IMG/VR virus record: IMGVR_UViG_3300047557_000923
Location: 1 to 47,115 of that record
DNA length: 47,115 nt
Reading direction: 5' to 3' (one strand)
Source of the DNA: a virus
The translations under genes were made by a program, and so were the position numbers. The notes beneath the pieces were generated by a model that worked only from the letters and a program-made list of their open reading frames with translations, searched no databases and was not told the DNA's origin. Positions 6,393-47,115 of the stretch are shown here, piece by piece. The number at the start of each line of letters is the position of its first letter. Within the stretch, counting starts at the first letter, position 1.

Positions 6393-7253
6393 ATGACGAT
6401 TCGATATGGCGACAGAACCGAGATCGGAAACCCCGTAACGGCATGGGGTCGAGGTGGTGGCGTAGCACTTTCAGAAGTCACGTTGTCGTTCTCGCCTGCG
6501 CCTGCCGCAACAGTTACACCTGTAACGGTGAACGGAACCGAGTTTCTAGTTGCGAGAGTCACCGCAAATACGACACTTACTGTTGCCGGTGCTCCTGCGA
6601 CCGCTTGCGCTGACCTGATTATGCTCGCAGGCGGTGGTGGTGGTGGTCCTGGATCTGGCGCACCTGCGTCGGGAAGTGGTGGCGGTGCTGGTGGTGCGAT
6701 CCAGGCAATGATACCCATAGCAAGCACCACATATCCAATAGTGATCGGTGGTGGTGGTGCGGCATCGGTTCAGGGAACAAACTCAACAGGATTTACCTTT
6801 ACTGCTATCGGTGGCGGCTTCGGTGGCTCCGGAACTTCCCCTGGTGGTCCCGGTGGCTCGGGTGGCGGAAGTCCTATCGGATCGTTCACAAATGTGGCAG
6901 GAACTCCGGGACAGGGCTTCCAAGGTGGACGTGGCGTAGAGTCTGGCCCTGGGAATTACGGTGGTGGTGGTGGTGGTGCTGGCGGCAACGGATCTGAAGG
7001 CTCAAATGCTGGGGGTGGCATCACCGTTTATTGGCCTAACTCGACGCCGACATGGGCAAGGATCGGCGGTGGCGGTGGTGGCGCAACTGGTTACAGTAGT
7101 CGTTTCGCTACTAACAGTTTCGGTGGTGGCACAGGTGGAAACCCGGTGACGCCTGGTACCAGTGGAACAGCCAATACGGGCGGCGGTGGCGGTGGGCAAG
7201 GTTTCAGTGGTGGCTCTGGTGTCGTGTTTCTTCGTGTTAGGAAGTTTCAGTAA
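6393..7253 (+). CDS. Glycine-rich tail adhesin
   Basis: 286 residues, with AGGAG just upstream (6382-6386). Residues 30-75 form a short beta lead-in (VNGTEFLVARV..TTLTVAGAP) ending in the sentence-like motif DLIMLAGGGGGG, which is characteristic of glycine-rich fibre domains. The rest is dominated by runs of Gly with Ser/Asn/Pro (GGGG at about residues 81-86, 115-119, 190-198, 225-233, 266-272), ending in VVFLRVRKFQ. Such domains form polyglycine-type adhesive tips (compare T-even gp38 adhesins and pelagic phage fibres) and usually decide host recognition. The DNA of the glycine runs is GGT/GGC-rich and may be prone to slippage. Confidence 0.8.
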   Translation: MTIRYGDRTEIGNPVTAWGRGGGVALSEVTLSFSPAPAATVTPVTVNGTEFLVARVTANTTLTVAGAPATACADLIMLAGGGGGGPGSGAPASGSGGGAGGAIQAMIPIASTTYPIVIGGGGAASVQGTNSTGFTFTAIGGGFGGSGTSPGGPGGSGGGSPIGSFTNVAGTPGQGFQGGRGVESGPGNYGGGGGGAGGNGSEGSNAGGGITVYWPNSTPTWARIGGGGGGATGYSSRFATNSFGGGTGGNPVTPGTSGTANTGGGGGGQGFSGGSGVVFLRVRKFQ

Positions 7254-7633
7254 TGGCACACTTCGCACGACTAAATGAGAACAGTACAGTCACGATGGTT
7301 ACCGTCGTTTCTAACGATGACATTCTCGATGACGACGGAAATGAAATCGAAGCATTAGGTGTCGCAGTATGCGAGCAGGTCGTGGGTCCTGGTCCATGGA
7401 TACAGACTTCGTTCAATAACAACTTTAGAAAGCAATACGCCGGAGTTGGATTCACATACGATCCTGTAGCGGATGTCTTTATCAGACCTAGCCCGTACCC
7501 ATCTTGGGCACTCGACAATAACTATGACTGGCAGGCTCCGATACCGATGCCAGACGACGGGGGATTCTACGAATGGAACGAAGAAACACAGACCTGGGAT
7601 CGTCTACTAAGTTTCAAGCCGATCGAGGAATAA
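7253..7633 (+). CDS. Phage protein of the MAHFA family, unknown function
   Basis: 126 residues, overlapping the adhesin stop (TAATG). It begins MAHFARLNENSTVTMVTVV and has conserved-looking FRKQYAGVGFTYDPVADVFIR and PYPSWALDNNYDWQAP segments. I recognise this layout from T4-like and other marine phages, where proteins starting MAHFA(K/R)I(N/D)ENN sit next to tail fibre and oxygenase genes; no function has been assigned to my knowledge. The neighbourhood (adhesin before, oxygenases after) matches that setting. Base composition here (6.4-7.7 kb) is noticeably more A+T-rich than the flanks, suggesting a swapped cassette. Confidence 0.75.
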   Translation: MAHFARLNENSTVTMVTVVSNDDILDDDGNEIEALGVAVCEQVVGPGPWIQTSFNNNFRKQYAGVGFTYDPVADVFIRPSPYPSWALDNNYDWQAPIPMPDDGGFYEWNEETQTWDRLLSFKPIEE

Positions 7634-8235
7634 CGGAAGGTCCGACGATACTTAGATCGCTATTCAATGATTCAACACATAAGGCGATCAAACAGTTCCT
7701 CGATGACCGGGTTCCATTACTCGCTCTTGGAACGCCTCTGGGAACCGATACAACGAACTTCGTGCGTGATTACGCACACAATGCCCCGTTCTTTGTGAAG
7801 ATTCATAGGAACTTAGTTGAGACTGCGTGCGAGATATTCGGTGAGCCGGTCAAACCGTCGTACTCGTTTCTGTCGATGTACAAAGACAACGGGATCTGCC
7901 CACTTCACATCGATCGACCGCAGTGCCGATACACGATCGACTATCTCATTCGACAGACGCAGTCAGAGCCGTGGCCGATCCTGATCGGTGACCATATGAG
8001 CGACGACGAACGGCAGGCAATCGACGAAGCAGAGGATGGGCATCCCGATACGCCAGAGAAGATCGAGGCTCGGATCGCCGCCGAGAACTGGCATCGGATC
8101 GAACTAAACCCAAATGACGCTGTCTGCTACTCGGGCACGCACTCCTGGCATTACCGACCTGATCGACTTCGAGGAACAGCCGACCTAGTGTTCTTCCATT
8201 TCGTTCCGGTCGCCTTCGACGGATCGCTGGACTAG
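7573..8235 (+). CDS. Putative 2-oxoglutarate/Fe(II)-dependent dioxygenase (first of three)
   Basis: 220 residues. The only start in this frame before the conserved part is ATG 7573, giving a 61-base overlap with the preceding gene. Residues ~110-118 give an H-x-D metal motif (CPLHIDRP) and the distal part has GTHSWHYRPD (about residues 190-199) with the second His, then a beta strand (ADLVFFHFV). This is the order expected of the double-stranded beta-helix dioxygenases, which hydroxylate protein or small-molecule substrates using O2 and 2-oxoglutarate. Substrate unknown. The two following genes carry other variants of the same fold. Confidence 0.65.
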   Translation: MERRNTDLGSSTKFQADRGITEGPTILRSLFNDSTHKAIKQFLDDRVPLLALGTPLGTDTTNFVRDYAHNAPFFVKIHRNLVETACEIFGEPVKPSYSFLSMYKDNGICPLHIDRPQCRYTIDYLIRQTQSEPWPILIGDHMSDDERQAIDEAEDGHPDTPEKIEARIAAENWHRIELNPNDAVCYSGTHSWHYRPDRLRGTADLVFFHFVPVAFDGSLD

Positions 8236-8243
8236 GAGCCGTT

Positions 8244-35580: not shown

Positions 35581-36234
35581 ATGGCAACATCCATCCTGAA
35601 GTCGATCAAGGGCAAGGTCGTCCGGCTCACCCGTCTCGACGACTGTGGCGATCCGGTCGTCGGCTCCTGCTCGACGCTCGTCTCGGAGTGTTTCGTCTCG
35701 GTCACGTTGTCGGCTGAGATCGAAGCCGGTGACGAGTATCTCCAGAAGTCGGCATGGGGCGACCTCTGTATCAACGACAAGGATCCGGACATCATCAAGT
35801 GGGTGAACGTCTCGATCAACTTCGCTGAGATCAACCCGGACGCTCTCGACATCCTCACTGGCGCTGACCCGATCGTCTCGGGTGGTAACACGATCGGTGC
35901 GGCCTGGGCTCCGGTGGCGAACGACACCGCCTTCTCGCTCGAAGTGTGGACCAAGTTCACGGGCGAGCCGTGTACCGGCACTCCGGACTGGGGCTACTTC
36001 GTCGTCCCGTTCATCCGTAACGGTCGCATCGACGGTGACCTCACCATCGAGAACGGTGTCATGACGATCGGTGTCGTCGGCCAGGGCTTCGCCGCGACTA
36101 ACTGGGGCGCATCGCCCTACACGCCGAACCCGTTCATCGAGACCTTCCCGACCGGGAACATCTTCGGCATGGTCGTCACCGACGTTCAGCCTCCGACCGA
36201 CACCGCCGGTTGTATCCCCTACACCGGATCCTGA
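35581..36234 (+). CDS. Putative major tail protein
   Basis: 217 residues. Beta-rich with ILKSIKGKVVRLTRLDDCG (about 5-23), INPDALDILTGADPIV (about 82-97) and a repeated strand-turn pattern (FFVVPFIRNGRIDGDLTIENGVMTIGVVGQGF), the style of tube-forming tail proteins. The motif around ALDILTG with a preceding strand is frequent in actinophage major tail proteins. The position between capsid and connectors is unusual but occurs. Possibly Ig-like domain at the end is lacking. Confidence 0.6.
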   Translation: MATSILKSIKGKVVRLTRLDDCGDPVVGSCSTLVSECFVSVTLSAEIEAGDEYLQKSAWGDLCINDKDPDIIKWVNVSINFAEINPDALDILTGADPIVSGGNTIGAAWAPVANDTAFSLEVWTKFTGEPCTGTPDWGYFVVPFIRNGRIDGDLTIENGVMTIGVVGQGFAATNWGASPYTPNPFIETFPTGNIFGMVVTDVQPPTDTAGCIPYTGS

Positions 36235-36518: not shown

Positions 36519-37958
36519 ATGACTCTGCTCGTACCCCGAACCTTTCATCGGATCTGGCTCGGCTCCCGAATCCCAGCCGAGTTCGCCTCGTTCGGCCAGT
36601 CCTGGCTGGATCTGAACCCAGGGTGGGAGATGCGTCTCTGGACCGAGGACACGCTCCCTCCGCTCCGTAATCAGGATCTGTATGACCGGGCCCCGGAGAT
36701 CGTCCCGTCCCGTCTCGTGTGGCGTTTCCGATCCAACCTGGCCCGATATGAGATCCTTCATCAGTACGGAGGCGTCTACCTCGACACTGACTTCGAGGCG
36801 CTCAAACCGATCGAGCCATACATCGGTGGCCTGGATCTATTCGCCGCTGAGGAAAGACCCGGTCTGATCGCTAACGGCTTTATCGGGGCCCGAGCCGGAC
36901 ATCCCTTCCTGGACGCTCTCATCATGGGAGCCAAGCGTTCGGTAGCGGAACGGCCTGGCTATCCGTCGTGGCGCACAACTGGGCCAGAGTATCTGACCAG
37001 GGTCGCACGAGAGCGTCCGGGACAGATGTCCCTCATCCCGACTCGTCTGGTGTACCCGTACCATCACACAGATCTCGGACGTGACGGCTCGTCAGGCGAC
37101 ATCGATCCTGACGCCTTCGCTCATCATGTCTGGGCGTCTCGACGTAAGAGTGTGTCGGTCATCATCCCGTGGAGGCCCGGATGCCCTCATCGTGAAGCGA
37201 GTCGAGACTGGCTCGTAAGCAAGATCGAGACAGATCATCCGGACTGGCAGATCGTCGAGACAGATCATCCGGGCGACGACTGGTCGAAGGCTGAGGCGAT
37301 CATCCTCGGGATCGAACGATCCTACGGTGACGTGATCGTCGTCCATGACGCCGACGTCTGGTCTGACGGGACGATGGAAGCGATCCAGATGGTCCGACAG
37401 GGACAGCCGTGGGCGATGCCTCATCAGAGGGTCATCCGACTCGATGAGCGTGCGTCGATAGCCTGGCGTGACGGATCACGAGGAACGATGGTGGTCCGGA
37501 ACACAGCCGAACGCCCGTATCAGGGTGTGCTCGGTGGAGGGATCGTCGTCCTTCCACGCTCAACTGCTGAGATGTATCCACCCGACCGGCGGTTCCGTGG
37601 CTGGGGTGGCGAGGACGAGTCGTGGGCGTTCATGCTGGAGACACTGGTCGGCCCTGTGTGGCGTGGCCGACATGACCTCATCCACCTATGGCATCCTCCG
37701 CAGGCTCGACGCACCCGATCGCACGGCTCGCAGGCGAACACTGATCTCGCCGCCCAGTACAGGGCCGCCCGAGGGAATGTCGAGGTGATGCTTCGAGTCA
37801 TGGCTGGTGAGGACATCGCAGTCCGAGCGATCTTCCGACACGAACGCACGGGACGACAGATCGAAACTGAGGTCGGCTCAAACCAGTTTCACCAGTTGTG
37901 TACCGACCCGAGATGGAAGATCTCGATCCCTCCTCTGAGGCAACGACGCTCGGTGTAG
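36519..37958 (+). CDS. Two-domain glycosyltransferase (GT32-like plus GT7/GT2-like)
   Basis: 479 residues. Residues 1-190 form a sugar-transferring DXD domain (GT32/Och1-like): IPRTFHRIWLGSRIP-type start, RFRSNLARYEILHQYGGVYLDTD (DTD at 89-91), then EERPGLIANGFIGARAGHPF. Residues ~210-440 are a second transferase: SVSVIIPWRPGCPHREASR, VVHDADVW (D-A-D, about 272-278), PYQGVLGGGIVVLP and the RGWGGEDESWAF motif (about 364-375) typical of galactosyltransferase-type C-termini. The two could add successive sugars. It lies in the structural operon, upstream of the collagen-like fibre. The substrate is not known; virion protein glycosylation is the natural guess. Confidence 0.82.
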   Translation: MTLLVPRTFHRIWLGSRIPAEFASFGQSWLDLNPGWEMRLWTEDTLPPLRNQDLYDRAPEIVPSRLVWRFRSNLARYEILHQYGGVYLDTDFEALKPIEPYIGGLDLFAAEERPGLIANGFIGARAGHPFLDALIMGAKRSVAERPGYPSWRTTGPEYLTRVARERPGQMSLIPTRLVYPYHHTDLGRDGSSGDIDPDAFAHHVWASRRKSVSVIIPWRPGCPHREASRDWLVSKIETDHPDWQIVETDHPGDDWSKAEAIILGIERSYGDVIVVHDADVWSDGTMEAIQMVRQGQPWAMPHQRVIRLDERASIAWRDGSRGTMVVRNTAERPYQGVLGGGIVVLPRSTAEMYPPDRRFRGWGGEDESWAFMLETLVGPVWRGRHDLIHLWHPPQARRTRSHGSQANTDLAAQYRAARGNVEVMLRVMAGEDIAVRAIFRHERTGRQIETEVGSNQFHQLCTDPRWKISIPPLRQRRSV

Positions 37959-37961
37959 GAT
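37956..37961 (+). promoter_or_regulatory. -10-like TAGGAT before the connector gene
   Basis: TAGGAT, 6 bases, ATG 37968. Identical box and spacing to that before the protease gene (30781). Confidence 0.45.
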
Positions 37962-37967
37962 CCGGAC

Positions 37968-38669
37968 ATGACTGCCTGCGACGACTGGCCGATCCGTTAT
38001 CCATGCGACGTATCTGAGGTCGATCCGGCTCTGCTCGGCATCGTCCGAGACTCCGCTCAGACGATCCTCTGGTCACTCTCAGGTCGCCGATACGGTCTCT
38101 GCTCGACGACCGAGTCGTATCGGACACCATGTAACGATCCGTGCTATCAGGGCATCCTGTTCGATATGCCACCGGGCGTCCAGTGGGATCTGGGGATCCG
38201 GTATCGCCATCCATGTTGTCGGATCCAACTCCATTCGCTACCTGTGCGTGCGATCGTCGAGGTCACGGTCGAGGGCGAGATCCTCGATCCGTCCGAGTAT
38301 GCCCTGGAGCGTGACATCCTGTGGCGCAACGGAGAGTGCTGGCCGTGCGACTCTGGATGCGATGAGCCACCTGTCGTTGTCGAGTATCTGTATGGGATCG
38401 ATGTGCCACCGCTCGGCGAACTGGCGATGGGAGAACTGGCCTGCGAACTGTTGGCCGGTCTGACCGGAGCCGACTGTCGTCTCCCATCGAATGCGGTCGC
38501 AGTCACCCGGCAGGGTGTCACGATCGACCTCGGAGACGTTCGCACCCTATTCGAGATGGGACGGATCGGCCTGCCGATCTCTGACGCCTTCCTCAGATCG
38601 GTGAACCCGAACCATCTCCAGTCACGGTCGATGGTCTACTCACCTGATCTGGCGAGGCGTGTCCGATGA
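37968..38669 (+). CDS. Head-tail adaptor (connector) protein
   Basis: 233 residues. Starts MTACDDWPIRYPCDVSEVDPALLGIVRDSAQTILWSLSGRRYGLC, like head-tail adaptors of actinophages, then RHPCCRIQLHSLPVRAIVEVTVEGEILDPSEY and helices towards the end (ELAMGELACELLAGLTG...). Many cysteines (14 or so). It docks on the portal. Position among connector genes and the early helix-rich core support the call. Confidence 0.7.
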   Translation: MTACDDWPIRYPCDVSEVDPALLGIVRDSAQTILWSLSGRRYGLCSTTESYRTPCNDPCYQGILFDMPPGVQWDLGIRYRHPCCRIQLHSLPVRAIVEVTVEGEILDPSEYALERDILWRNGECWPCDSGCDEPPVVVEYLYGIDVPPLGELAMGELACELLAGLTGADCRLPSNAVAVTRQGVTIDLGDVRTLFEMGRIGLPISDAFLRSVNPNHLQSRSMVYSPDLARRVR

Positions 38670-39154
38670 TCGACTCACCCTACGTTGTCGCCAACCAGGT
38701 TCTCTGTTGCGTCCGGGACGGGATGCTCAACGCCAACCGTCCAGAACTCCAGCAGGCATACGTCGCCGCCGGGTCCATCGCCTGGGACAACTGCTGTGGG
38801 ATGCTCGTCGTCGCACCAGAACGGATCTACCGCTCCACCACGTTCTTCACTGAAGCAACCGGACCCGAGGACTGTAACGCCGGATTTCTAGTCGTCGAAC
38901 TGGTCGTCGTTGTCGTGCGATGCGTCCCAACAGTCGATGATCGTGGTCGAGCCCCAACAGCCCATGCCCTCAACGAGGCATATCGAGATCTCCTCGACGA
39001 CGCCGCTGTTGTCTGGAACTCCATACTCTGTTGCGACTTCGAGGACTGGGAACGAGGAGCAATCTCACAGACATTCGTCGGAGCCGATGGAGGATGCGTC
39101 GCCGTCGAAACCCGATTCCCGTTAGGGCTAGAGCAACAAAGGTGGATCAGATGA
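38666..39154 (+). CDS. Putative neck / tail-terminator protein
   Basis: 162 residues, ATGA overlap. Alternating helix and strand (LLCCVRDGMLNANRPELQQAYVAAGSIAWDNCCGM... FLVVELVVVVVRCVP... HALNEAYRDLLDDAAVVWNSILCCDFEDW), similar to head-completion and tail-terminator proteins. Function inferred from operon order. Cys-rich like its neighbour. Confidence 0.5.
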   Translation: MIDSPYVVANQVLCCVRDGMLNANRPELQQAYVAAGSIAWDNCCGMLVVAPERIYRSTTFFTEATGPEDCNAGFLVVELVVVVVRCVPTVDDRGRAPTAHALNEAYRDLLDDAAVVWNSILCCDFEDWERGAISQTFVGADGGCVAVETRFPLGLEQQRWIR

Positions 39155-39510
39155 CGACAGTCGCCGCCGCTACATGGAACGCCGTGACCGATCAGGGAGG
39201 AACCTTCGATCGGCTCGTCACCTACCGATACAACGGGACACCGTTCGACTTCACCGGCTGGGGTTTCCGGTTCGCTCTGAAACGATCGTTCGACTCGACC
39301 GCCGTCCTAGAAATGGACACTGCTGACGGTGATCCGATCACGCTCGGAGGACCGCTCGGCACGATCCAGTTCACGGTCAGCGCCGTCACTATGGCTGGAC
39401 TAACCGGCAAGTATCTGTGGGACGGCGAGGCATACGATCCGCTGAACCCGGCGACCGTCGTAAAGGTGTGGCGTGGCACGGTCACGGTCCGGCCTGAGGT
39501 GACGACATGA
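39151..39510 (+). CDS. Small beta-sandwich virion protein (BppU N-terminal-like)
   Basis: 119 residues from ATG 39151 (ATGA overlap). Sequence [30 protein letters not shown]...[20 protein letters not shown]...[17 protein letters not shown] has the strand order of the domain found at the start of upper-baseplate/fibre proteins. It directly precedes the collagen-like protein, in ATGA overlap, so it may be the fibre's anchoring partner. Confidence 0.6.
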
Positions 39511-42113
39511 CCGATCCGAACTGCTGTCCTGACGCCGAGATCACGGAACTCCCGGCGCAACTCGTCGTCGAGGACGACTGCTCCGTCATTATCGAGGTCG
39601 CCGGAGCCGGTATCCCCGGTCCGGTCGGACCACAAGGCTCCCAGGGTCCACAAGGACCGCAGGGAGACACCGGCCCACAGGGATCGCAGGGTCCTCAGGG
39701 ATCACAGGGCTCCCAAGGCTCGCAGGGTCCACAAGGGCCACAGGGCGACGAGGGTCCTCAGGGAGCCGGTGGAGCCCTCGGCTACTACGGGTCGTTTATC
39801 GACCTGACGACACAGACCGCCGCCTCGACGACGGTCGCCTACCCGTTAGAGATCAACACGACGCTCGAAGCGAACGGTGTGTCGATCACGAACGACGGCT
39901 TGGGTAACCCGACACAGATCACGATCGCTAACGACGGGACCTACCAGATCATCTACTCGGCGCAGATGGTGAACCCATCGAACGACGAGCATCATGTCTC
40001 GATCTGGCTACGCCTCAACGGGACCGACATTCCGGCCTCCCGATCGCAGTGGACGCTCGTCAAATCACACGGTGGCGAACCAGGTGCGACGGTCGGGACG
40101 ATCGAATACACGATGACGCTCGACGCTGGAGACGACCTCCAGTTGTACTGGCAGACCGAGTCCACAGCGATCCAGATCGCTACTCTCCCGGCAGGTACGA
40201 CGCCGACGACTCCGCAGTCTCCGGGCCTGATCGTCTCGGTAACGCAGGTGATGTACACGCAGGTCGGACCGCAGGGCGTCCAGGGACCGCAGGGTGCGGT
40301 CGGAGCGCAGGGAGCAGTAGGTCCTCAGGGTGCTGTGGGGGCGACTGGAGCACAGGGCGCACAGGGAGCACAGGGACCGATCGGCCTTACCGGAGCGCAG
40401 GGTGCTACAGGACCGCAGGGAGCCGTCGGACCCCAGGGATCGACCGGACCGCAGGGCAGTCAGGGCGCACAAGGACCGACCGGAGCACAAGGACCCCAGG
40501 GACTCACCGGCTCCCAGGGTGCTCAGGGACCTCAGGGTGCGACCGGGGCGCAAGGTGCGACGGGTGCTCAGGGCTCGACTGGGCCGCAAGGACCGCAGGG
40601 CCTGACCGGACCGCAAGGCTCGCAGGGTGCGACCGGATCTCAGGGATCGACTGGACCTCAGGGAGCGCAGGGAGCGACCGGCGCACAGGGCTCGATCGGA
40701 CCACAGGGCCCACAGGGAGACGTCGGCGCTCAGGGCAGTCAGGGGCCACAGGGCTCGCAGGGACCCCAGGGCGCAGATGGAACGTCCGTGACGATCCTCG
40801 GCGAGTATCCCGACTATGCGGCTCTCATCGCCGCACACCCGACCGGCAACCCTGGCGACGCCTACCTCCTCGCTAACGGCGATCTCTATGTCTGGGACGC
40901 TGTCGGGAACCAGTGGGTAAACGTCGGCAACATCGAGGGACCGCAGGGCGATACCGGACCCCAGGGTCCTCAGGGAGCCCAGGGCGCTCAGGGTGACGTC
41001 GGCCCTCAGGGTGCTGTCGGCGCACAAGGCTCAACAGGACCGCAGGGACCGCAAGGCGACACCGGCCCTCAGGGACCGCAGGGCGATACGGGCCCTCAGG
41101 GTGCGACAGGTCCTCAGGGCGCTCAGGGAGCGACCGGAGCACAGGGACCGCAGGGCGCTGTCGGCGCTCAGGGCGACACCGGACCACAGGGAGCGCAAGG
41201 CTCACAGGGCGCTCAGGGACCGCAGGGAGACGTCGGCGCACAAGGACCCCAGGGAGCCATCGGGCCGCAAGGACCGCAGGGAGATACGGGCGCAACGGGA
41301 CCGCAGGGACCACAAGGAGACGTAGGTGCTCAGGGACCTCAGGGTGCTCAGGGTGCGACAGGCGCTCAGGGACCCCAGGGCGACACGGGAGCGACTGGTC
41401 CTCAGGGTCCACAGGGCGACACAGGCGCACAGGGGCCACAGGGAGCGAGCGGACCGCAGGGTGCTACCGGACCTCAGGGACCGCAAGGAGACACAGGACC
41501 TCAGGGACCGCAGGGCGATACCGGACCCCAGGGCGCACAAGGACCCCAGGGAGATACCGGGGCGCAGGGTCCCCAAGGACCCCAGGGTGATACAGGACCG
41601 ATCGGTCCCCAAGGCCCACAGGGAGATACCGGACCCCAGGGCGCTACTGGCGCTCAGGGAGCAGTAGGTCCTCAGGGTCCTCAGGGACCGCAAGGAGACA
41701 CGGGCGCTCAGGGCGCTGTCGGTCCCCAGGGACCGCAAGGTGACGTCGGACCGCAGGGCTCCACCGGGCCGCAAGGACCACAGGGAGATACAGGACCACA
41801 AGGCCCAGTGGGTCCTCAGGGTGCGACTGGAGCCCAGGGCGCACAGGGCGCACAGGGTCCTCAGGGAGCCGCCTCGACAGTCCCCGGACCGCAGGGACCG
41901 CAGGGGCCGCAGGGCGCTACCGGAGCGACAGGTCCCCAAGGGCCAACGGGACCGCAGGGACCTCAGGGCAATACTGGGCCTCAGGGCGCAACAGGCCCTC
42001 AGGGACCGGCAGGACCGCAAGGAGCACAGGGAGCCCAGGGAGCACAGGGTCCTCAGGGTCCATCCGGGGCGGCGTCCGACCTGACCGTGCTCGAACTACA
42101 GGTATTCGGCTAG
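39507..42113 (+). CDS. Collagen-like fibre protein
   Basis: 868 residues, ATGA overlap with the previous gene. N-terminal 35 residues (Cys-Cys at 6-7) form an attachment part. Gly-X-Y repeats (mostly Gly-Pro-Gln, with Gly-Ala-Gln, Gly-Asp-Thr, Gly-Ala-Thr, Gly-Ser-Thr) fill about residues 34-92, 253-421 and 476-852. Between the first two lies a beta domain (about 93-252) like a C1q/TNF-type trimerisation unit. A short globular insert (about 421-475; [35 protein letters not shown]) interrupts the repeats. The repeats contain no Lys but many Thr at Y positions. Probably a trimeric tail or head fibre. Flanked by glycosyltransferase genes. Confidence 0.85.
40264..40770 (+). repeat. Collagen repeat DNA, block 2
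   Basis: About 56 tandem 9-base-like Gly-X-Y coding units (GGN-CCN-CAG dominant), which make the DNA highly repetitive. Prone to recombination and to assembly error, so repeat number should be treated with caution. Confidence 0.7.
40936..42064 (+). repeat. Collagen repeat DNA, block 3
   Basis: About 125 Gly-X-Y units, the longest repeat block. Same cautions as for the block at 40264. The repetitive codons explain several long antisense open frames here. Confidence 0.7.
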
Positions 42114-42122
42114 ACAGATCTC

Positions 42123-42893
42123 GTGCTCGTCTCGATCATCACGCCGACCTACAAGACACCGCCTGAGATCCTCGCTCGGACCTACGCCAGCCTCCGAGCG
42201 CAGACCTACACCAACTGGGAGTGGATCATCTGGGATGACTCGCCCGGCGATCTCGTGTGGAGACAGATCTACGGCTTCGCCGCCGACGAGCGGTATCGCA
42301 TCCGAGCCCACCGATCCCTTGCCCCGAGCGGAGGGCAGATCGGACAGGTGAAACGACAGGGGTTCATGGTCGCCGAGGGAGAGATCCTCGTCGAACTCGA
42401 CCACGACGACGAACTGACCTCGGACTGTCTCGCCGAACTCGTCGAAGTGTTCTCCGATCCTGACGTCGGCTTCGTCTACTCCGACTGGTGTGAGATCAAC
42501 GAGCGAGGCGAATGGTGTCGCTATCCGGCAGGCTGGGCGTTCGGCTATGGCTCCGAGTATGAGATCGAGCCGGGCCGATGGGTGATGCGAGCACCGATCC
42601 TGAACCGGACGACGCTGTCGCATATCGTTTCGGCTCCGAACCATGTCCGAGCGTGGCGTGCGTCGGTCTACCGGCAGATCGGCGGTCACGATCCGAGTCT
42701 GCCGATCGCCGACGACTATGACCTCTGTGTCCGTACTGCTCTTGCTACCAGGTGCGTCCACATCCCGAAACTGCTCTACCGTCAGTACATCGGCTCGCAT
42801 ACCGCTCAGCGACAGCGGAACGATCTCATCCAGACACTCGTGGCAGAGATCTCAACCCGGCACATGGATCAAATCGCTGAACTATTCTCTTAG
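42123..42893 (+). CDS. Family-2 glycosyltransferase next to the collagen-like gene
   Basis: 256 residues, GTG start 42123, 9 bases after the fibre gene. The N-terminus MLVSIITPTYKTPPEILARTYASLRAQTYTNWEWIIWDDSP is the classic GT2 nucleotide-sugar fold. Asp residues at EILVELDHDDEL (about 88-99) give the D-x-D; VRAWRASVYRQIGGHDPSLPIADDYDLCVRTA (about 178-209) supplies the ED-type acceptor region. GT-A enzymes transfer sugars from UDP/GDP donors in the cytoplasm. The tight spacing behind the fibre gene suggests that the fibre is the acceptor. Confidence 0.88.
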   Translation: MLVSIITPTYKTPPEILARTYASLRAQTYTNWEWIIWDDSPGDLVWRQIYGFAADERYRIRAHRSLAPSGGQIGQVKRQGFMVAEGEILVELDHDDELTSDCLAELVEVFSDPDVGFVYSDWCEINERGEWCRYPAGWAFGYGSEYEIEPGRWVMRAPILNRTTLSHIVSAPNHVRAWRASVYRQIGGHDPSLPIADDYDLCVRTALATRCVHIPKLLYRQYIGSHTAQRQRNDLIQTLVAEISTRHMDQIAELFS

Positions 42894-43422: not shown

Positions 43423-44631
43423 ATGTCGAGCCGGATCCTGCGTGCTCTCGGGGGAGCCTGCTGGGGTGGCCTAGTCCTTCTCGCATTTCCGTGGCCGACC
43501 TACCGTGCGTCGGCGGCGACATATCAGGTGACCGGCGCTTCCGACTTCTACGTCGAGGTCACCGAGCCGAGCAACCTCCAGATCAGGGCCTATGCTCAGC
43601 AGTACGGCATCGACTCGCATCTCTGGGTCTACGACACCTCCGACGTCCTGGTCGCCGCTAACGACGACTGGTACGGACTCGACTCGTGGATCGACGTCCC
43701 GGTCCAGCCTGGGATCTATCGCATCCGAGCCGGGATCTGCTGTGGTGATCCGGACGCTTGGTATGGGGCAGGCTATGAGATCCACCTCAACTATGAGCCG
43801 ACAAACCTGTCACCGACGACGACCTCGACGACGACTACGACCGAGCCCGAACCGACGACTACGACGTCCGAGCCGGAGCCGACTACGACAACGACGATCC
43901 CGGAGGAGACGACAACATGGCCGCCAACTACCGAGTCCACGATCCCCGAGACGACGCCTACTACTACTGCGCCTCCCGAGACTGTCCCTGCCACGACCCA
44001 GCCTCCACAGCCACCGATCGTGATCCCTCCGATGCCGGACCCAGAGCCGACGATCCCACCCGAACCCGACCCGGAACCTGAGCCGACGGTCGCCCCGGAA
44101 CCTGAGCCGACACCCGAGCCCGAGCCGAGCGTCGCACCGGAGCCTGCGCCGATCGATCAGCCCGAACCGATCTCTGAGCCCGAGGTCGTGGAACCCGAGG
44201 TCGCACCTACCCCGGAACCTGAGCCGTCACCTACGCCCGAGCCTGAGCCCGAGGCCGAGCCTCAGCCTGAGCAGGAAACCGATCCCGTGCTCGATGAGGA
44301 GAAGATCGACGCCGCACCCTACCCACCGCTAGTGACCGTGACCAGTAGCGACCTCGCCTCCCTCACCTCGGAGGCGCTGTCCGAACTACTATCGACGATC
44401 AACGACGGCATCTCCGACGAGGAGGCCGAAGCGCTCGCTCTGGCGATGAGCGACGCACCCGACGAAGTGAAAGCCCAGTTCGAGGCTCAGATCAACATCT
44501 TCGCCGGGCAGTTCGACTCCTACGTTCCGATCGGATCGCTGATCCCGGTCGGAGAGCGTCGGAGTTTCATCGCCGCTGTGGGGGTCACCGCATCGGCTAT
44601 GGCGTCGGCCAGCCGGAGGAGCAAACCCTAA
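43423..44631 (+). CDS. Secreted Pro/Thr-rich stalk protein with C-terminal membrane anchor
   Basis: 402 residues from ATG 43423, whose start lies right after the previous stop; a start at 43327 would lack the signal. Residues 1-30 are a signal peptide ([21 protein letters not shown] ... ASA-A). Residues ~33-125 form a beta domain ([22 protein letters not shown]...[29 protein letters not shown]... YRIRAG) like a PPC or lectin-type domain. Residues ~126-290 are Thr/Pro/Glu-rich (TTTTTT, PEPEPT repeats), an extended, possibly glycosylated stalk. The C-terminal ~110 residues are helical, ending in a hydrophobic segment and basic tail ([21 protein letters not shown]), a type I membrane anchor. It resembles actinobacterial surface proteins. 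Confidence 0.65.
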
Positions 44632-46187: not shown

Positions 46188-47115
46188 ATGGCGAGAAACC
46201 TCGGAGAAGCGTTCGTTCAGATCTCGCCCGACCTATCCGGCTTCGGACCCGAACTACAGGCCGGAGTCCAGGCCGCCATGTCGAAGGCGGTCGGTGAAGT
46301 CGAGGAAGCAAACGACGAGATCGAAGCGTCGTTTCGGGCGACGGCTCAGGCCGCCGAAACTGCTCTCGGTCAGGTAGACGGAGACGGCTTCCAGAAGGTA
46401 CGTCAGGCCGCTAACCAGGCCGGTGAGACGATCGGAGCGCAACTCCGGGAAGGAGCCCTCGAAGGCGATCGGGCTCTCGCCGACGTCGATGGTGACGGCT
46501 TCCGAGAAGTACGGGACGAGGCCAAGAAAGCCGGTGATGCGATCGGCGACTCGCTCGCCGAAGGAGCGAAAGAGGGCGACCGGGCGATTTCTAACCTGGC
46601 AAAGTCTGCCGGGTTCGCCGCTCTCGCCGCCGGGATCACCAAGTTCGCTACAGACTCAGTCAATGCGTTCGCCGACCTCGGCGAGACTGTCTCGAAAGCG
46701 ACCGTCATCTTCGGCGACGGGGTCGATGAAATTATCCGGTTCGGTGACGAGGCATCGCAGGCTCTAGGCCAGTCAAAGCAGGCCGCTATCGCCGCCGCCT
46801 CCGACTTCGCTATCTTCGGTAACGCCGCCGGACTGACAGGTCAGGAACTCGCTAACTTCTCCGTCGATCTGACGACCCTCGCTTCTGACCTCGCATCGTT
46901 CTCCAACACGACGCCCGAGGATGCGGTGCTCGCTCTCGGAGCCGCCCTGCGTGGCGAGTCAGAACCGATCCGACGATACGGAGTCCTGCTCAACGAGGCG
47001 ACTCTCCAACAGCGTGCGGTCGAGATGGGTATCCGAGACACCCTCGGACCTCTCACCCAGCAGGAACGGGTCCTAGCCGCACAGGCTGAGATCTTCGCTC
47101 AGACCTCGCTCGCAC
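46188..47115 (+). CDS. Tape measure protein, N-terminal part (partial at window end)
   Basis: The reading frame opens at ATG 46188 (MARNLGEAFVQISPDLSGFG) and runs to the window end, where it overlaps the frame starting at base 2. N-terminal features: QISPDLSGFGPELQAGVQAAM, the typical start of actinophage tape measures; two related internal repeats with D-x-D-x-D-G-F and (R/Q)xAxxA/xG (LGQVDGDGFQKVRQAANQAG and LADVDGDGFREVRDEAKKAG); then a hydrophobic segment (ISNLAKSAGFAALAAGITKF). The joined length is about 1,220 residues, which would predict a tail of medium length (roughly 1.5 angstrom per residue). Confidence 0.92.
   Translation, partial: MARNLGEAFVQISPDLSGFGPELQAGVQAAMSKAVGEVEEANDEIEASFRATAQAAETALGQVDGDGFQKVRQAANQAGETIGAQLREGALEGDRALADVDGDGFREVRDEAKKAGDAIGDSLAEGAKEGDRAISNLAKSAGFAALAAGITKFATDSVNAFADLGETVSKATVIFGDGVDEIIRFGDEASQALGQSKQAAIAAASDFAIFGNAAGLTGQELANFSVDLTTLASDLASFSNTTPEDAVLALGAALRGESEPIRRYGVLLNEATLQQRAVEMGIRDTLGPLTQQERVLAAQAEIFAQTSLA
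46943..47115 (+). repeat. 173-base overlap with bases 1-173 (circle closure)
   Basis: The last 173 bases match bases 1-173 except at seven positions (127, 130, 133, 139, 142, 145 and 148 in the first copy), all third codon positions and synonymous. It shows that the sequence closes on itself. Confidence 0.9.

Follow-up and report, generated by a model that had tools for sequence, protein, structure and literature searches.

In Clostridioides difficile, the gene for the glycosyltransferase SgtA adjoins bclA3, and SgtA adds O-linked N-acetylglucosamine (O-GlcNAc) to threonine in the collagen repeat (PMC7157674). As for hydroxylation of such Gly-X-Y repeats, a 2012 statement held that bacteria and viruses are without prolyl hydroxylases for the Y-position proline (PMC3368898). 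We analysed the whole 47,115-nucleotide viral record IMGVR_UViG_3300047557_000923 (the window, referred to below as this phage), which encodes a collagen-like fibre, several glycosyltransferase (GT) domains and three 2-oxoglutarate (2OG)/Fe(II) dioxygenases, termed OXY1, OXY2 and OXY3. An initial annotation of these genes had combined them into a single collagen-modification module, in which the oxygenases hydroxylate the collagen prolines and the GTs then decorate the fibre. That proposal is partly supported: the genes on which it was built were confirmed, the single module was not. We consider it rather probable that the window carries two separate fibre-modifying cassettes, one around a glycine-rich tail-tip adhesin (6393-9442) and the other around the collagen-like fibre (38666-42893).

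The first and last bases of the record (1-173 and 46943-47115) are 96% identical, as in a near-complete siphovirus record, and the tape-measure open reading frame (ORF) spans the join of the two ends; the circular layout assumed in the initial annotation is therefore plausible. Measured round the circle, the oxygenases lie ~12.6 kb from the collagen. Genes for the portal, major capsid protein (MCP), tail tube, adaptor, tape measure and tail tip were identified by PHROG family. Relatives were gathered by an MCP scan that gave 38 records, 32 of them read whole or nearly so, and two further relatives were added solely via the GT at 36519; nearly all records were searched whole for the families discussed here. 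The nearest sister, G004, has an MCP 92% identical to that of this phage; after it, the MCP tree places G001 closest.

The collagen-like fibre and nearby glycosyltransferases

The collagen cassette comprises the following features:

39507..42113 (+), collagen-like fibre of 868 residues with 204 Gly-X-Y triplets (PF01391, E = 1.1e-90)
39753..40271 (+), domain inside the fibre, weakly BclA_C-like (C1q-like; PF18573, E = 1.9e-4, under the curated cut-off)
42123..42893 (+), GT2, a predicted collagen O-glycosyltransferase (PF00535, E = 1.5e-16)
38666..39154 (+), connector-region protein by its phrog_810 family match
39151..39510 (+), phrog_1084 protein (4.5e-15)

The PF01391 match, together with long unbroken Gly-X-Y runs, bears out the earlier call of a collagen-like protein. 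Among its triplets, proline occupies the X position 88 times and the Y position once, while Y is filled by Gln (129), Thr (43) and never by Lys; Pro-Gly occurs five times against 27 predicted from composition. The fibre thus lacks the Y-position Pro or Lys of a hydroxylated collagen of the animal or mimivirus type, and it carries threonine within its repeats as in the BclA3-SgtA system. This composition upholds the earlier remarks on proline at X, threonine at Y and the absence of lysine from the repeats; the hydroxylysine route had been rightly dismissed there, and threonine rightly named as the likely glycan site.

Several relatives indicate how the fibre may be mounted. In G006-G008 (L051, L053, L055, L056) the phrog_810 protein, encoded by a separate gene (38666) here, continues at its C-terminus into the collagen; from this fusion we infer that the fibre is mounted on the tail or in the region of the head-tail connector rather than at the tail tip, with the phrog_810 protein as its likely anchor. 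The phrog_1084 gene was found among relatives only in G004, G009, G012 and G014, and lies immediately 5' of each stand-alone collagen of the family. The domain at 39753..40271 is probably a trimerisation domain; in G005, G013 and G015 the phrog_810 protein bears a domain that resembles it by eye.

The GT2 gene starts 10 bases past the collagen stop, a gene adjacency of the SgtA type. In all five genomes with a stand-alone collagen (this phage, G004, G009, G012 and G014), a GT2 gene occupies the slot between the collagen and tape-measure genes; in relatives whose genomes lack a stand-alone collagen, this slot showed no GT. The slot enzymes of this phage and G004 belong to one family and are 87% identical, and those of G009, G012 and G014 belong to another, phrog_13126 (a GT2 with a TPR part). 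Given this recurrence and the SgtA-BclA3 precedent, we regard action of GT2 42123 on the collagen as an evenly balanced proposition; the enzyme would most likely glycosylate Thr (or Ser) residues in the repeats, as SgtA does on BclA3, in a fibre that would be attached to the connector protein 38666. Three findings weigh against this assignment. The fused collagens of G006-G008 are Thr-rich yet have no GT in that slot, collagen and GT were co-gained in perhaps only two clades, and, among 112 collagen loci that we gathered from viral contigs by DNA repeat pattern, the occurrence of a GT beside the collagen did not depend on Thr at Y (p=1, with a GT search of limited sensitivity). On the supporting side, five of these 112 loci had a GT within 3 kb (two of the five being near-copies), every one of them at most 348 bp from the collagen. 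In the unrelated viral contigs concerned (L330:2337-3644, L378:3463-4515, L383 and L387), the GT lies 0-348 bp from the collagen, upstream or downstream.

The second GT gene, here called GTA, lies among connector and tail genes:

36519..37958 (+), two-domain GT (GTA; N-terminal PF04488, E = 1e-12; C-terminal phrog_1721, E = 2.5e-11)
35581..36234 (+), major tail (tube) protein (phrog_792, 1.2e-52)
37968..38669 (+), head-tail adaptor (phrog_783, 2.9e-47)

The DXD motif of the PF04488 domain is visible as YLDTD, and the phrog_1721 family of the other domain is labelled 'galactosyl transferase'; with PF00535 at 42123, the three GT domains originally noticed near the collagen are confirmed. Homologues of GTA were found in G004, G001 and G016, always adjoining the tail-tube gene, and G001 and G016 have no collagen. 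The acceptor of GTA is thus probably not the collagen; a different structural protein, perhaps that of the tail tube, is the more probable substrate.

The same pattern suggests a broader alternative, which we find less persuasive without regarding it as far-fetched, namely that every GT, 42123 among them, acts on proteins of the capsid or tail tube or on the host cell wall. Two of the four genomes in which GTA adjoins the tail-tube gene have no collagen, many relatives have GTs elsewhere in the genome, and the capsid proteins of Che8 and Rita are reported to bear glycans (PMC11256854). Such a role does not account, however, for the fact that 42123 and its unrelated counterparts occupy the collagen slot only where the collagen stands alone.

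The adhesin cassette and its oxygenases

The three oxygenases lie in a run of five genes on the same strand:

6393..7253 (+), Gly-rich tail-tip adhesin of 286 residues with 87 Gly, 18 Pro and 6 Pro-Gly (PF21722, E = 4.4e-15)
7253..7633 (+), phrog_7759 protein of 126 residues, the constant neighbour of the oxygenases (phrog_7759, E = 3.3e-40)
7573..8235 (+), OXY1, 2OG/Fe(II) dioxygenase by its HxD...H motif and predicted fold (phrog_2954)
8244..8882 (+), OXY2, PKHD-type 2OG/Fe(II) dioxygenase (PF13640, 1.5e-16)
8879..9442 (+), OXY3, 2OG/Fe(II) dioxygenase (PF13759, 1.8e-25)

The initial annotation had recognised three successive 2OG/Fe(II) dioxygenases, and all three proved genuine, OXY2 and OXY3 by their Pfam matches and OXY1 on the evidence of its motif, its AlphaFold2 model and a fold search. 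OXY1 had no Pfam match; its HxD...H motif is conserved across its family, its AlphaFold2 model has a predicted local distance difference test (pLDDT) score of 90, and its Foldseek matches are 2OG dioxygenases, among them HygX (4.9e-9) and the proline hydroxylase H11 (1.4e-7). The first ~17 residues of the OXY1 ORF are of low confidence and may be non-coding. For OXY2, the PKHD type stands, as evidenced both by PF13640 and by its nearest PDB structures, which are PKHD hydroxylases such as PiuC (9ghl, E = 1.3e-11), the match to the Bacillus anthracis prolyl 4-hydroxylase (P4H) being only E = 0.03. The start of OXY3 had also been placed correctly, at a GTG (8879) in a four-base overlap (GTGA) with the OXY2 stop, the longest ORF beginning at 8855. 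We also observed that proteins labelled 'ferrochelatase' in many marine phages (phrog_2954 and phrog_3531; records of S-SSM5 and HTVC033P) resemble the OXY1 family. The label appears mistaken, given the HxD...H motif of that family and its 2OG-dioxygenase fold.

The adhesin 6393 matches PF21722 at 56.7 bits against a cut-off of 24.3, and its gene comes after the tail-tip genes. Its AlphaFold2 model (pLDDT 86) resembles the tail tip of mycobacteriophage Bxb1 (9d93_Qa, 9.5e-5) and a fibre of cyanophage Pam3 (7ypx, 4.6e-4); the template modelling (TM) scores are low (0.33-0.38), so we take the likeness as one of family only and the protein as a presumptive tail-tip or fibre part. A PDB sequence search with the Gly-rich profile gave no match, these matches coming from the fold search alone.

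To locate the partners of the oxygenases, viral contigs were scanned with OXY1 and OXY2, which gave 21 distinct OXY1 loci. OXY2 directly follows OXY1 in every one; a Gly-rich gene lies within 2.2 kb upstream in 18 of the 21, and phrog_7759 is likewise present in 18, whereas no collagen was found within 2.2 kb in any (three loci have one farther off). A tree of 63 OXY2 homologues places the enzyme of this phage in a 17-row clade (support 100/99) of which 15 rows lie beside phrog_7759 and two beside a Gly-rich gene, and puts the collagen-linked enzymes in other clades; neighbour labels changed 15 times on this tree as against 32.7 when shuffled. The same kinds of gene also occur together in cultured cyanophages and pelagiphages. 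Among the relatives, PF21722 and phrog_7759 were found jointly in this phage, G004 and G013 only, and two of these three have oxygenases. We therefore hold with good confidence that the adhesin cassette is where the oxygenases belong. The Gly-rich adhesin, originally listed as an alternative acceptor, suits them better than the collagen does.

Were adhesin prolines the substrate of the oxygenases, the proline content of the adhesin would be expected to follow the presence of these enzymes. We scanned with phrog_7759, for which several hundred loci exist, and took the C-terminal 260 residues of the Gly-rich proteins immediately upstream for comparison, near-copies removed. Adhesins with a downstream oxygenase (n=24) had a median of 19.5 Pro and 5 Pro-Gly, those without (n=40) a median of 5 and 1 (p=4e-9 for Pro, p=3e-8 for Pro-Gly), with no difference in glycine content (88 and 90). 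The Pro-Gly difference was also seen inside the low-, middle- and high-GC bins (p=1e-4, 0.03 and 0.04, respectively), and with near-copies kept at least 11 Pro were present in 32/32 oxygenase-linked adhesins and 6/42 others. Because total proline carries the Pro-Gly effect, which vanishes at constant total Pro, these data support proline as the target residue and do not support an X-Pro-Gly motif.

Taking substrate, chemistry, timing and role from this gene content, synteny, proline covariation and enzyme folds, we propose that OXY1-3 most likely hydroxylate prolines of 6393 during infection, ahead of virion assembly, and that the phrog_7759 protein may assist in binding or presenting the substrate. 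That adhesin prolines are the oxygenase target we favour by a modest degree, in view of several opposing considerations. The loss of the Pro-Gly effect is one of these. The adhesins with and without oxygenases were gathered largely by different queries, and shared ancestry may lie behind both oxygenase presence and proline content; the phrog_7759 tree has poor resolution, offering only two supported independent contrasts, which run in the expected direction in most pairings, with significance out of reach. Furthermore, G013 has the adhesin and phrog_7759 but no oxygenases. Finally, this reading does not explain why a single protein should require three different oxygenases.

The content of the oxygenase cassette varies. 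In G004 (L046:4627-8833), the OXY3 slot holds a PhyH-type dioxygenase, a second PF13640 enzyme, a methyltransferase-like ORF and an opposite-strand GT2, and a weak cupin-like protein precedes its OXY1. With a different gene set in the OXY3 slot of so near a sister, the cassette appears to be exchangeable.

Variable content of this kind would also fit auxiliary metabolic genes that merely happen to occupy a region of changing content after the tail genes, with the oxygenases acting on small molecules or the host surface (e.g. sugars, amino acids). The PhyH protein, cupin-like protein and further GT2 of G004 would suit such a slot, PHROGs classes all three oxygenases as auxiliary metabolic genes, and the OXY1 model is as similar to small-molecule enzymes (HygX, SnoK, BesD) as to proline hydroxylases. 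We nevertheless think this explanation unlikely: a metabolic role predicts neither the fixed adhesin-phrog_7759-OXY1-OXY2 order across many phage contigs nor the proline enrichment of the adhesins.

Oxygenases and collagens in relatives and other phages

The initial annotation had proposed that related phages be searched for joint gain and loss of the collagen, oxygenase and GT genes. Matches to PF13640 or PF13759 were found, among the relatives searched, in this phage and its sister G004 only, and collagens of at least 40 triplets were present in G004, G006-G008, G009, G012 and G014. PF13640 and PF13759 searches found no 2OG oxygenase in the collagen-bearing G007, G009 and G012, an absence that is credible because G007 and G012 are near-complete with overlapping ends (~160 bp in G012, for which counts are approximate) and G009 is 49.7 kb long. 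The hydroxylase genes are thus not kept with the collagen gene, 42123 tracks the stand-alone collagen, and 36519 is present in G001 and G016 without one, a presence/absence pattern on which we reject a joint collagen-oxygenase-GT module. Of the earlier idea that the phage hydroxylates and/or glycosylates its own collagen, the hydroxylation part fails on these relatives and on the near absence of Pro and the absence of Lys at Y, and the glycosylation part finds partial support, through 42123.

Hydroxylation of the collagen prolines followed by GT decoration is accordingly very improbable here: one genome does hold collagen, GTs and oxygenases, all in structural regions by position, the B. anthracis P4H is able to hydroxylate X-position prolines, with Y favoured (PMC8968730), and other phages have PKHD oxygenases directly downstream of collagens, but relatives keep the collagen without oxygenases, the proline of 39507 is at X with few Pro-Gly, and neither the OXY1 loci nor the OXY2 clade is linked to collagen.

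The situation may differ in other phages. A 2OG oxygenase lay within 3 kb of 10 of the 112 collagens, on the same strand in all cases and downstream in all but one. Across the 112 phage collagens as a whole, Y-position Pro showed no association with the presence of an oxygenase in the vicinity (5/10 vs 42/102, p=0.74). When pairs were limited to a gap of at most 100 bp, mostly Y-position Pro was seen in 6/10 collagens vs 19/122 without an oxygenase (p=0.003); the six represent five distinct oxygenases, as two are 97% identical. One clade of PKHD-type oxygenases (support 96/87; L132:7521-10540, L145:8001-10423, L150:8179-10546, L291:7250-9900, L312:6272-8650, L364:3753-8640 and L134) had Y-Pro collagen neighbours in 7/7 cases vs 2/13 for other collagen-linked enzymes (p=5e-4), a result to be read as a lead rather than a test because the clade was chosen after the tree was seen. 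Examples of Y:X Pro counts in these neighbour collagens are 26:0, 41:1 and 46:8, a pattern as in hydroxylated animal collagen. Some oxygenase-adjacent fibres grade into Gly-rich adhesins, and Pfam tallies to ~1.2 kb up- and downstream of the collagens gave no dominant family and few GTs or oxygenases.

Collagen hydroxylation as originally suggested may therefore hold for other phages. More generally, we put forward, tentatively and at slightly below even likelihood, that phages carry their own protein-proline hydroxylases and that a PKHD-type oxygenase travels with its fibre, one clade serving Pro-rich adhesins, as in this phage, and another Y-Pro collagens. Phage-borne proline hydroxylases, if true, would contradict the 2012 statement (PMC3368898). 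Our literature search, which reached few subscription journals, found no description of a phage collagen with a prolyl hydroxylase.

Two further features of the window were observed. The ORF at 43423-44631 encodes 402 residues with a long Thr-rich stretch, then Pro/Glu repeats and a C-terminal domain; profile searches gave no family match, and in G009, G012 and G014 its counterpart sits elsewhere in the genome. The sequence CCGACNNNAGTCGG occurs in six exact copies (10859, 11151, 11653, 17099, 23424 and 25173), four of them within a longer 42-nt repeat reaching into an ATG start, and with at most one mismatch in 21 matches vs 4 expected. It has the appearance of a regulatory site, such as an operator.

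Comparison with known systems

2OG oxygenases are common beside the tail-fibre genes of aquatic phages, and no tested account of what they do there came to our notice. Hydroxylation of the neighbouring fibre or adhesin, if it occurs, would assign a function to a large and so far unassigned class of genes and would mean that phage receptor-binding parts are post-translationally tuned. Splitting the two ideas that had been merged, adhesin and collagen, points to the right protein for examination, and a mass-spectrometry test becomes possible if the reading is true.

The cyanophages and pelagiphages S-SSM5, S-SM1 and HTVC033P likewise have 2OG-Fe(II) oxygenases and 'ferrochelatase' genes in one cluster near the tail fibres, and in S-SSM5 and HTVC033P the cluster also contains phrog_7759. 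Their nearest OXY2 relatives are, however, 35-40% identical, and here OXY1 and OXY2 are adjacent in fixed order in a siphovirus with actinophage-like structural genes. Among characterised enzymes, PiuC and the B. anthracis P4H are the counterparts of OXY2 through its PF13640 and PiuC matches, with the difference that the P4H match is marginal and the substrate of OXY2 is a prediction. Mycobacteriophage Che8 also has phage GTs that decorate the virion, but the acceptor there is reported to be the capsid protein (PMC11256854). Mimivirus, with its collagens and the enzymes L230 and R699 (PMC9546862), is similar in that a virus encodes collagen and hydroxylase and glycosyltransferase kinds of enzyme; that system works via hydroxylysine, whereas in this phage Y carries no Lys and the collagen shows no link to the oxygenases. 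For the collagen cassette the nearest parallel is BclA3-SgtA (PMC7157674). The present fibre belongs to a phage, Gln outnumbers Thr at Y (129 against 43), and the GT lies downstream of the collagen, unlike SgtA, which lies upstream; what the two systems have in common is a collagen-like surface fibre, an adjacent GT gene and threonine in the repeats as the site, predicted in the phage, of sugar addition.

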